This document shows, piece by piece, positions 24,730 through 27,775 of a stretch of DNA of 64,000 bases. The stretch comes from Lysobacter enzymogenes (GTDB lineage Bacteria; Pseudomonadota; Gammaproteobacteria; Xanthomonadales; Xanthomonadaceae). A program made the position numbers and the translations under genes. Position 1 is the first letter of the stretch. Each line of letters opens with the position of its first letter. The notes beneath the pieces are model-generated. The model was given only the letters and a program-made list of their open reading frames with translations, ran no database searches and was not told where the DNA came from. The stretch lies in the NCBI RefSeq assembly GCF_900106525.1, contig NZ_FNOG01000002.1, positions 124,001-188,000 of the forward strand, written 5' to 3'.

Positions 24730-25719
24730 CTAGGCGCTCTGCGGGCGCGTGCGCAGGCGCCCGGCGGCGAACAGCCTCAAGGCGTGCCCGAGTTCGGCCG
24801 CGTCGCGCAAAGGATCGAACCAGCGCGCGTCAAGTTCGCCGCGCAGCCAGGTCAGCTGGCGCTTGGCCAGCTGGCGGGTGGCGTAGATGCCGCGGTCGCG
24901 CAGCTCGGCGGCGGAGTACGCGCCGTCCAGATGTTCCCAGGCCTGGCGGTAACCGACCGCGCGGATCGCCGGCAGCTCCAGCGGCGCCGGATGCGTCGCC
25001 AGGCCCGGCAGCGCGCGCAGGGCGCGGACTTCGTCGAGGAAGCCGTCGGCCAGCATTTGCTCGAAGCGGCGCTCGATCCGCGCGTGCAGCACCGCCCGGT
25101 CGGCCGGCGCCAGCACCAGCTTGAGCACCCGGAACGGCAGCCGCGGCCGTCCGGCCGAGGCCCGGCGCCAGTCGCTGATGGTGCGCCCGGACAGGCGCCA
25201 GACCTCGAGCGCGCGCTGGATGCGCTGGGCGTCGGTGGCGTGGATGCGCGCCGCCGCCTCCGGGTCGAGCGCGGCGAGGTCGGCGTGCAGCGCGGCCCAG
25301 CCGCGCTGGCCGGCCTCTTCGCTGAGCGCGGCGCGCACCGCCGGATCGGCCTCGGGCATGTCCGACAGCCCGCGCAGCAGGGCGTGGAAGTACAGGCCTG
25401 TGCCGCCGGCCAGGATCGGGATGCGCCCGCGCGCGGCGATCTGTTCCATCGCCACGCGGGCGTCCGCGGCGAACTCGGCGGCCGAATAGGCCTGCCACGG
25501 CTCGCGCACGTCGATCAGGTGATGCGGCGCCGCCGCCTGTTCGGCCGCGCTGGGCTTGGCCGCGCCGATGTCCAGGCCGCGGTAGACCAGGGCCGAGTCG
25601 ACGCTGACGATCTCCGCGTCCAGGCGCTGCGCCCAATCCAGCGCGAGCGCGGTCTTGCCCGAGGCGGTCGGGCCCATCAGGGCGATGGCGAGCGGGCGCG
25701 GGTCGTGGGAGGCGGTCAT
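24730..25719 (-). CDS. miaA: tRNA dimethylallyltransferase
   Basis: The product has 329 residues. It adds a dimethylallyl group to N6 of A37 in tRNAs reading UNN codons. The P-loop [15 protein letters not shown] is at the N-terminus, followed by [19 protein letters not shown] (substrate binding) and [16 protein letters not shown]. The AVGYRQAW motif near the C-terminus is also intact. It is the first gene of the miaA-hfq-hflX-hflKC set here and is preceded by the DnaA-box repeat region. Confidence 0.97.
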
Positions 25720-25921
25720 GCGGGAGCGGCTGAACCGCGCGGCGATAGCGACGCGCAGCCTCGCACAGGCGCGCGGCGCGCGAAAGCCGGCCGGCGGCCG
25801 CGGCGGCGCCCGTCATCGCTGCGCAAACAAGCTGCGGCAAGCCTCCGGCGCGACCGCCCCACCCTGCCCCGGGCCCCGGCGCCGGGCCAATTTGGACATT
25901 TCTTGACCCGCCCGTTGCAGT

Positions 25922-26023
25922 TGTCCACATCCCCTGTGGACAAGCCTGCGGACAGTTTTTCGATTGCGTTCGCGAAGCCTTGCGGCATAAGCATTGCAAG
26001 AGGTTTGGCGAGAAATTGACCAG
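25922..26023 (+). repeat. 102-bp DnaA-box repeat, unit 1 (diverged)
   Basis: With the preceding T, the left box is a perfect TTGTCCACA (25921-25929). The right box TGTGGACAA lies at 25935-25943. The 3' half has diverged: it lacks the T-run and ends GACCAG instead of GTCCAG. It still has a hairpin at the same place (CTTGC 25979-25983 with GCAAG 25996-26000). Confidence 0.75.
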
Positions 26024-26068
26024 TGAATTTCCTTGACTTTGCCGGCGCCATCGGCATCCGCGCGGCAG

Positions 26069-26170
26069 TGTCCACAGCGCCTGTGGACAAGCATGCGGAC
26101 ACCTGTGCGGGAATCGGGTTTCACGCCTTGTACGGCGGGGCCCGGGCGGGATTGGCGGTTTTTTGTCCAG
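26069..26170 (+). repeat. 102-bp DnaA-box repeat, unit 2
   Basis: The left box is GTGTCCACA and the right box TGTGGACAA (26082-26090). The conserved GGAATCGGGTTTCACGCC core follows. A CGCC/GGCG hairpin lies at 26124-26137, and the unit ends in a T6 run and GTCCAG. Confidence 0.88.
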
Positions 26171-26339
26171 GCGTTTGCGGGCGCCCACGGGCGGTGCGGG
26201 CGGGCCGGAATTGCCGCAGGCGGCGTGTTGCGGCGCATCAGGGCGGCTGCGGGGTCCGCACTTGTGCCCTGCCCGACCGCGCTCGCGGCGCGCGGCCAGG
26301 CGCCGATGCCGGCCGCGCGGGCGCGGCGGGCCTCGCCGC

Positions 26340-26441
26340 TATCCACACAGGCTGTGGACAAGCATTGGGACACACGCGCGGGAATCGGGTTTCACGCCTT
26401 ATGCGGCGCGGCTTTGAAGAGATTGGCTGTTTTTTGTCCAG
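26340..26441 (+). repeat. 102-bp DnaA-box repeat, unit 3
   Basis: The left box is CTATCCACA (26339-26347) and the right box TGTGGACAA (26353-26361). The CGCC/GGCG hairpin spans 26395-26408. The unit ends in a T6 run and GTCCAG. It is the closest relative of unit 4, sharing GCATTGGGACACACGC and GCGCGGCTTTGAAGAGATTGG. Confidence 0.9.
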
Positions 26442-26546
26442 CCGCGGTTTGGAGCGCTCGCGCCGCGGCCGGCGCTGCATCGCGCACGCGCGGGCTTGCT
26501 TTTTTCGCGCTTTTCTCGCAGTCGCCGCGCCGACGACTCGCTTGGC

Positions 26547-26648
26547 TATCCACACAGCCTGTGGACAAGCATTGGGACACACGCACGGGAATCGGGTTCC
26601 ACGCCTTATGCGGCGCGGCTTTGAAGAGATTGGCGTTTTTTTGTCCAG
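26547..26648 (+). repeat. 102-bp DnaA-box repeat, unit 4
   Basis: The left box is CTATCCACA and the right box TGTGGACAA (26560-26568). Compared with unit 3 it has GGTTCC in place of GGTTTC, which turns a possible G-T pair of the small GGAA/TTCC hairpin into G-C. The unit ends in a T7 run and GTCCAG. Confidence 0.9.
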
Positions 26649-26752
26649 GCCGGATCGCGAGCGCGCGAAAGCGCATCGTCTCTGCGTCGCGATGCCGCGC
26701 CGGCCGGATTTCTTCAAGTCGTCGCCGGCGCCGCATCATCGCCGCTCGCCGC

Positions 26753-26854
26753 TATCCACACCGCCTGTGGACAAGCATGCGGACAGCTGCGTTGGAATCG
26801 GGTTTCACGCCTTGTGCGACAAGGCTTCGGCGAGTTTGATCATTTTTTGTCCAG
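26753..26854 (+). repeat. 102-bp DnaA-box repeat, unit 5
   Basis: The left box is CTATCCACA and the right box TGTGGACAA (26766-26774). The central hairpin differs in sequence but is stronger: GCCTTGT-GCG-ACAAGGC at 26809-26825. The unit ends in a T6 run and GTCCAG, 22 bp before the folP stop. Confidence 0.88.
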
Positions 26855-26875
26855 GCGCTGCGGACAAGCGTCGCC

Positions 26876-27775
26876 TTAATCCTCGTCCGGCCACTTCGGC
26901 ATCGCCGGCGCGGCCGCGCGCCGCGGCTGGGCCTGCGCGGCCACCGCCTCCCACACCTTGAGCGCGTCCACGGTCGCGGCCACGTCGTGCACGCGCAGCA
27001 GGCGCGCGCCGCGCTGGGCGGCGATCAGGTGCGCGGCGACCGAGCCGTGCACGCGCTCGCGCGCGTCCTCGCGGCCGGTCAGCTCGCCGATGCTGCGCTT
27101 GCGCGAAAGCCCGGCCAGCACCGGCACGCCGAGCTCGCCGAAGCGCTCCAGCTGCGCCAGCAGGGTCAGGTTGTGCTGCAAGGTCTTGCCGAAGCCGAAG
27201 CCCGGGTCGACCACGATGCGCTTCTTGGCGATGCCGGCCATCTCGGCGGCGAAGATGCGCTCGGCCAGGAACCGGTGCACCTGCGCGACGACATCGTCGT
27301 AGCTCGGCTCGTGCTGCATCGAGCGCGGCTCGCCCTGCATGTGCATCAGCACCACCGGCACGCCGAGTTCGGCGGCCGCGTCCAGCGCGCCGTCGCGGCG
27401 CAGGCCGTAGACATCGTTGATCAGGCCCGCGCCGGCGGCGACCGCGGCGCGCATGACCTCGGGTTTCGAGGTGTCGATGCTGATCGGCAGCGAGGTTTCG
27501 CGCGCCAGGCGCTCGATCGCCGGGATGGTACGGCGCAGTTCTTCTTCCACCGGCACCTCGGCCGCGCCGGGCCGGGTCGACTCGCCGCCGATGTCGAGGA
27601 TATCGGCGCCCTCGGCGGCCAGGCGCAGGCCGTGCGCGACCGCCGCTTCGAGCGTGTCGTGGGCGCCGCCGTCCGAGAACGAATCGGGGGTGACGTTGAC
27701 GATGCCCATCACGCGCGGGCGGTCGAGCTTGAGCGCGCGGCCGTTGCAGTCGAGGGTCGGGGCTAGGTCGAACAT
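26876..27775 (-). CDS. folP: dihydropteroate synthase
   Basis: The product has 299 residues. It condenses para-aminobenzoate with the pterin pyrophosphate in folate synthesis and is the sulfonamide target. Signatures visible are VMGIVNVTPDSFSDGG near residue 24, DIGGESTRPGA, SIDTSKPEV, the PGFGFGKT phosphate-binding loop, and GLSRKRSIG. It is read in the same direction as the upstream ftsH gene, with a repeat-bearing 307-bp gap between them. Confidence 0.97.
   Translation of the reverse strand: MFDLAPTLDCNGRALKLDRPRVMGIVNVTPDSFSDGGAHDTLEAAVAHGLRLAAEGADILDIGGESTRPGAAEVPVEEELRRTIPAIERLARETSLPISIDTSKPEVMRAAVAAGAGLINDVYGLRRDGALDAAAELGVPVVLMHMQGEPRSMQHEPSYDDVVAQVHRFLAERIFAAEMAGIAKKRIVVDPGFGFGKTLQHNLTLLAQLERFGELGVPVLAGLSRKRSIGELTGREDARERVHGSVAAHLIAAQRGARLLRVHDVAATVDALKVWEAVAAQAQPRRAAAPAMPKWPDED

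Follow-up and report, generated by a model that had tools for sequence, protein, structure and literature searches.

Tandem units with the three-box geometry of DARS1 between miaA and folP of Lysobacter enzymogenes, a probable array of DnaA-reactivating elements

The genome of L. enzymogenes comprises 6.26 Mb in 23 contigs, and the window (the whole stretch of DNA that was analysed, 64 kb) belongs to contig C12. An intergenic stretch of the window (25720-26875) is bounded by two genes of the minus strand, miaA (24730-25719, Pfam IPPT) and folP (26876-27775, Pfam Pterin_bind), while Hfq is encoded further out, past miaA. Five units, all on the plus strand, are arranged in tandem in this stretch, unit 1 lying 202 bp from the miaA start and unit 5 ending 24 bp from the folP stop. 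Each of them carries a forward box I, followed after 5 bp by a reverse box II and after a further 3 bp by a reverse box III, and each ends with an AT-centred 15-mer (the tail), which starts 63 bp past box II in all five cases. Boxes I, II and III and the tail are located at 25921-25929, 25935-25943, 25947-25955 and 26007-26021 in unit 1 (25921-26021), at 26068-26076, 26082-26090, 26094-26102 and 26154-26168 in unit 2 (26068-26168), at 26339-26347, 26353-26361, 26365-26373 and 26425-26439 in unit 3 (26339-26439), at 26546-26554, 26560-26568, 26572-26580 and 26632-26646 in unit 4 (26546-26646), and at 26752-26760, 26766-26774, 26778-26786 and 26838-26852 in unit 5 (26752-26852). Counted from the first base of box I through the tail, the module is 101 bp long.

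The original prediction, made from the window alone, had placed five repeats of exactly 102 bp between folP and miaA. The five units and their position were confirmed, but the uniform length does not hold for unit 1: units 2-5 are alike across 123 nt (74-89% identity to the reference copy), whereas unit 1 can be aligned with them over a 47-nt block alone (64-81% to unit 1), the core being kept and the DNA outside it having diverged. The facing TCCACA/TGTGGA pairs start at 25924, 26071, 26342, 26549 and 26755 and have a spacer of exactly 5 bp in each unit, which corrects the 4-6 bp given previously; no further facing pair separated by 0-30 bp occurs anywhere in the 64-kb window. The region of the array contains six exact TTRTCCACA boxes, which are all that occur in the whole window (0.08 expected), and eleven with at most one mismatch, compared with a mean of 0.17 and a maximum of 2 in 100 shuffles. 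The original prediction had counted about ten DnaA-box-like nonamers in less than 1 kb; the third, weaker box of every unit had been overlooked. In the units, both box I and box III deviate from the consensus of E. coli; box III reads TGCGGACAG or TTGGGACAC, and in the units of some relatives box III scores just 4-5 of 8. One further degenerate box, TGCGGACAAGC, is located at 26859-26869, directly past unit 5 and ahead of the folP stop.

This arrangement corresponds to that of the DnaA-reactivating sequences of E. coli. According to the accessible parts of PMC5742627 and PMC10380432, a DARS core consists of three DnaA boxes with equal spacing in DARS1 and DARS2, box I being opposed to boxes II and III, and the head-to-head pair of boxes I and II is essential. 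In strain MG1655, DARS1 was read as TTATCCACT-N5-TGTGGATAA-N3-TGTGTATTA and DARS2 as TTATTCACC-N5-TGTGGATAG-N3-TGTGAAGAA; the DARS2 boxes fall between two primers printed for the removal of boxes I-III (PMC4585315, accessible part), one primer being located by script and the second by visual inspection. DARS1, DARS2 and all five units share steps of 14 and 12 bp. The units also resemble DARS1 in being non-coding, in the placement of the word ATTGGCGTT, which in DARS1 stands as it does in unit 4, and in size, since DARS1 is given as 101 bp in an excerpt of PMC5742627 and the module here also measures 101 bp, the agreement being one of length. On the other hand, DARS1 is present in a single copy in E. 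coli and has different neighbours, whereas here five copies stand in tandem, with TTGTCCACA-like, GC-richer boxes, and it is from their architecture that we infer DARS activity. The sequence features of a DARS core, namely the opposed three boxes, the 5/3 bp spacing and a non-coding place outside oriC, were found at the locus. Judged by its sequence, the locus is probably an amplified tandem array of DARS1-type elements, which would turn ADP-DnaA into ATP-DnaA (we put the probability at about 0.68). A different DnaA complex could use this fixed geometry instead.

Ten strict cores are present in the genome of L. enzymogenes: five between miaA and folP, four in a second array, and one flanked by a hybrid histidine kinase gene and a response regulator gene. 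An eleventh core with a different box III, located upstream of priA (C4:131799), brings the total to 11. The second array lies on the opposite strand (C12:209.1-209.7 kb), about 58 kb from the first one and thus inverted relative to it, beside a HemJ-like gene (below its cut-off). A strict scan of named genomes returned 26 stretches, 22 from Lysobacter, one from Lysobacteraceae, two from Vulcaniibacterium and one from Paraburkholderia, which were accompanied by miaA or folP (19), by kinase and regulator genes (5) or by neither (2, the second array L183 and the Paraburkholderia stretch L187). The latter, on a contig of Paraburkholderia bannensis, is a lone core outside the family that has neither a similar tail nor the reference neighbours.

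All 20 genomes of the genus carry 3-9 strict cores between miaA and folP, these neighbours having been confirmed by tblastn in 19 of the 19 relatives. The second array occurs in five of the 20 genomes, and 15 of the 20 have a single copy that lies apart from the arrays; kinase and regulator genes adjoin in all five such loci from the named-genome scan. In all 11 genome pairs compared, divergence is lower in the boxes and the tail than in the DNA outside the units (for instance, 0.0% for the boxes versus 14.2% outside the units, and 7.4% versus 38.6%); the pairs share genomes and are not independent. The divergence of the middle part of the unit exceeds that of the outside DNA in two of the 11. 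In this comparison, the units of the first genome in each pair were marked by pattern, and the conservation of the boxes was measured in the second.

Near-palindromic, head-to-tail copies in variable number might likewise be expected of an array of small RNA genes, or of a mobile repeat in which DnaA-like words are incidental. Such an origin is extremely improbable here, as the repeat occupies one intergenic site in all 20 genomes of the genus and is not dispersed in its own genome. The scatter of copies that the original prediction had named as a counter-indication did not appear in a BLAST search of the genome: eight matches (E 4e-10 or better) all fell in the two arrays, and the next had an E value of 0.36. 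Outside the genus, BLAST with the unit gave weak matches alone, in two of 40 genomes. Two Rfam matches near the locus were both well below the cut-off and outside the array, and the consensus fold of 102 distinct units consisted of the invariant pairing of boxes I and II alone, without covariation. Hairpins with a T-run terminator, as the units had been read at first, were rejected, the aligned units showing no covariation beyond the box pair.

The geometry extends well beyond the genus. In a sample of 100 genomes of the order (that of L. enzymogenes, 19 of its genus, 40 from elsewhere in the family and 40 from elsewhere in the order), facing boxes of exact sequence and N5 spacing were found at 139 places in 90 genomes, whereas a reversed control pattern had zero occurrences in the same 100. 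When any spacer of 0-30 bp was allowed, 153 facing exact pairs were found in the 100 genomes, 139 of them with a spacer of 5. The remaining 14 comprise four N17 pairs, reading III-3-II-5-I, nine N28 pairs, eight of which hold an inner I-5-II while one (G071:C1:102342) is without the inner box II, and one N0 pair about 15 kb from dnaA in G018. The eight N28 pairs with the inner box II represent a variant core, in which box I is followed by 5 bp, box II, 14 bp (3+11) and a strong third box, in four genomes of the same family (G025, G029, G034 and G071). Among the matches listed, box III stands at +3 in 30 of 31 palindromes from 30 loci of the order (at most 4 at any other offset) and in 29 of 30 palindromes from 30 loci of the class (at most 8 at any other offset), so that it occupies exactly this position in 59 of the 61 taken together. 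The exact N5 palindrome occurs in 170 of the 369 genomes of the class sample; the strict pattern undercounts, because the cores of E. coli themselves miss the strict consensus.

Among the matches listed, priA was found at 15 of the 30 loci of the order and 11 of the 30 loci of the class. These single copies near priA, as well as the position of unit 1, 202 bp upstream of the miaA start, and the placement between miaA and folP kept in 20 of 20 genus genomes, could be explained if DnaA bound at the array regulated the transcription of miaA-hfq, which was another option of the original prediction, or of folP. However, the same core stands beside genes as unrelated as priA, a histidine kinase gene and a hemJ-like gene, the array at the last of these not being at miaA at all, and a promoter has no need of 3-9 copies with fixed inner spacing. 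Transcriptional control therefore appears quite unlikely, and the array is better read as a set of DARS1-type elements.

The tail points in the same direction. A similar 15-mer, GGCGTTAAAGACGGC, is carried by E. coli DARS1 at offset 63. Among the matches listed, a Fis-type 15-mer is present on the box III side of 18 of 30 elements of the order and 15 of 28 of the class, compared with two and two, respectively, on the opposite side (shuffle mean 2.0, maximum 6); one palindrome of the order (no box III) and two of the class (of which one lacks box III and the other has a short flank) were dropped from this count. The starts of the 15-mers, again among the matches listed, cluster around two positions about one helical turn apart, 63/64 in 21 cases and 52/53 in nine. 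In 111 units of the genus, A/T makes up 94-99% of each of the six columns from offset 68 to 73. The Fis motif and the IHF words used here are general consensus sequences. Examined by eye, the tails of units 3 and 5 fit the strict Fis motif, whereas the three others fail despite expectation, as does the tail of DARS1; therefore, the tail is named Fis-like. It continues into a weak DnaA box, TTGTCCAG, in units 2-5. The tail may be a counterpart of the stimulating flank of DARS1 (about 50 bp), perhaps one that binds Fis.

DnaA is identical at 260 positions with the 467-residue DnaA of E. coli and keeps residues D269 and L290, which act at DARS, while E21, R227 and V211 of the E. coli protein differ. 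Hda is present above its cut-off, and Fis was found in 99 of the 100 genomes of the order sample, including that of L. enzymogenes. In the proposed mechanism, ADP-DnaA molecules would occupy boxes I and II in a head-to-head arrangement, a complex that box III would steady, and the contact between DnaA molecules would expel ADP, leaving apo-DnaA free to load ATP. The tail would act as a DARS1-type stimulating flank and may bind Fis; a point against this is that E. coli DARS1 is active in vitro without added factors (excerpt of PMC5742627). The weak box TTGTCCAG at the tail might allow competition between DnaA and Fis; such competition has been reported for E. coli DARS2, whose weak boxes overlap Fis sites (PMC8682772, accessible part). 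The arrangement of units in tandem might raise the local rate of reactivation or make this rate scale with copy number.

The resemblance to DARS2 lies in the equal core spacing and in the tail that runs into a weak box, comparable to the weak DARS2 boxes on Fis sites described in PMC8682772. DARS2 is 455 bp in size, and its IHF and Fis sites are remote from the core, whereas the array has no IHF consensus: three matches with two mismatches were found in its region, compared with a shuffle mean of 1.5 and a maximum of 5. Control of the DARS2 type is unsupported, because no IHF site was found. The same observation bears on a datA-like site, which would speed up ATP hydrolysis by DnaA and which the original prediction had offered as an option. 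The array is, like datA, an intergenic, gene-free cluster of DnaA boxes outside oriC; however, the minimal datA requires an IHF site together with its boxes 2, 3 and 7 and is close to oriC (PMC10380432, accessible part), whereas here IHF consensus matches are not above shuffles, the order of boxes is unlike that described for datA, and the array lies 28-34% of the chromosome away from dnaA in nine of ten relatives. A datA-like function is thus very improbable, and this option has lost ground, while the DARS-like one has gained strong geometric support from a three-box order and spacing identical with those of E. coli DARS1 and DARS2, held in relatives, and a tail placed as in DARS1. Taken as a whole, the original interpretation is partly supported.

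The same genome contains a cluster of another kind, in which 23 TTRTCCACA boxes, all in one orientation, are packed into about 2 kb (C3:292014-294048, corresponding to L028:8015-10049), located 14 kb from dnaA and adjoining a TolR/ExbD-like gene. By its sequence it looks like a titration cluster. The head-to-head pair TCCACA-N5-TGTGGA is absent from it; therefore, cluster and array differ in design. In G014, 16 boxes, 13 of them co-oriented, are found in a similar place. Among genomes of the genus, the total number of TTRTCCACA boxes is 56-64 in G000, G008, G014 and G018, all of which have the second array, and 16-28 in G001, G004, G006, G007, G015, G016 and G019; the reverse of this pattern, as a control, occurs 19-57 times in the first four, and the 57 of G018 equal its TTRTCCACA count.

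The array between miaA and folP might itself be a titration site, the boxes of which only hold DnaA, its fixed geometry reflecting cooperative binding and not nucleotide exchange. Eleven boxes with at most one mismatch in about 1 kb would suit such a role, the genome also has the clear titration-like cluster of 23 boxes, and titration has been argued for E. coli (PMC12371093, accessible part). Dense DnaA boxes are indeed common to both, but titration requires neither the fixed I-5-II-3-III order nor a tail, and the 23-box cluster, co-oriented, loosely spaced and without the head-to-head pair, is built differently from the array. Titration as the function of the array consequently appears unlikely, and reactivation of DnaA at DARS1-type elements is preferred.

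Among the papers listed in a literature search that covered mainly openly available articles, none described DARS in Lysobacter or Xanthomonas, beside priA, in tandem, or as single copies across the order. The papers found deal with DARS in E. coli and its relatives, and the DARS2 core has been called specific to gammaproteobacteria related to E. coli (excerpt of PMC4245941). The present results suggest that replication control of the DARS type is wider, and more readily multiplied, than these papers indicate. One scenario, to which we would give about even odds, is that a DARS1-type module, made up of the three-box core and a tail at fixed helical phase, is old in many gammaproteobacteria, often standing beside priA, and that in the Lysobacter group it was multiplied into arrays, the copy number of which sets the speed of DnaA recharging; one clade would then have added the second array and a dense titration cluster on the dnaA side, scaling both together. 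The core geometry occurs in 90 of the 100 genomes sampled from the order of Lysobacter and, as the exact-consensus palindrome, in 170 of 369 of the class; it provides a straightforward rule by which reactivation sites could be sought where none are known. In the tail, a definite 15-mer is a candidate for the working part of the DARS1 flank. The natural arrays of 3-9 units form a dosage series suited to asking how control of initiation is divided between reactivation and titration.

Finally, the position of the array on the chromosome was considered. The original prediction that the locus is not the obvious origin was borne out: dnaA sits on another contig (C3:277493), and oriC was rejected on this ground and by the distance from dnaA in the relatives. 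This distance is 28.0-33.8% of the chromosome in nine of ten relatives and 10.0% in G004 (in G007 and G019 it was taken on the largest contig), compared with 33.9% for E. coli DARS1 by the same measure. The DARS1-like distance is a side fact only, because the ten relatives share gene order, and are thus not independent, and because G004 departs from it. Two inverted arrays bracketing an origin were also considered and rejected, as both lie 27.7-31.3% from dnaA in G008, G014 and G018, the three measured relatives that have both arrays. In G004 the array, the kinase-side copy and the priA copy are located at 10.0, 20.8 and 47.8% from dnaA, unlike in the other relatives, which points to a rearrangement or a misassembly.
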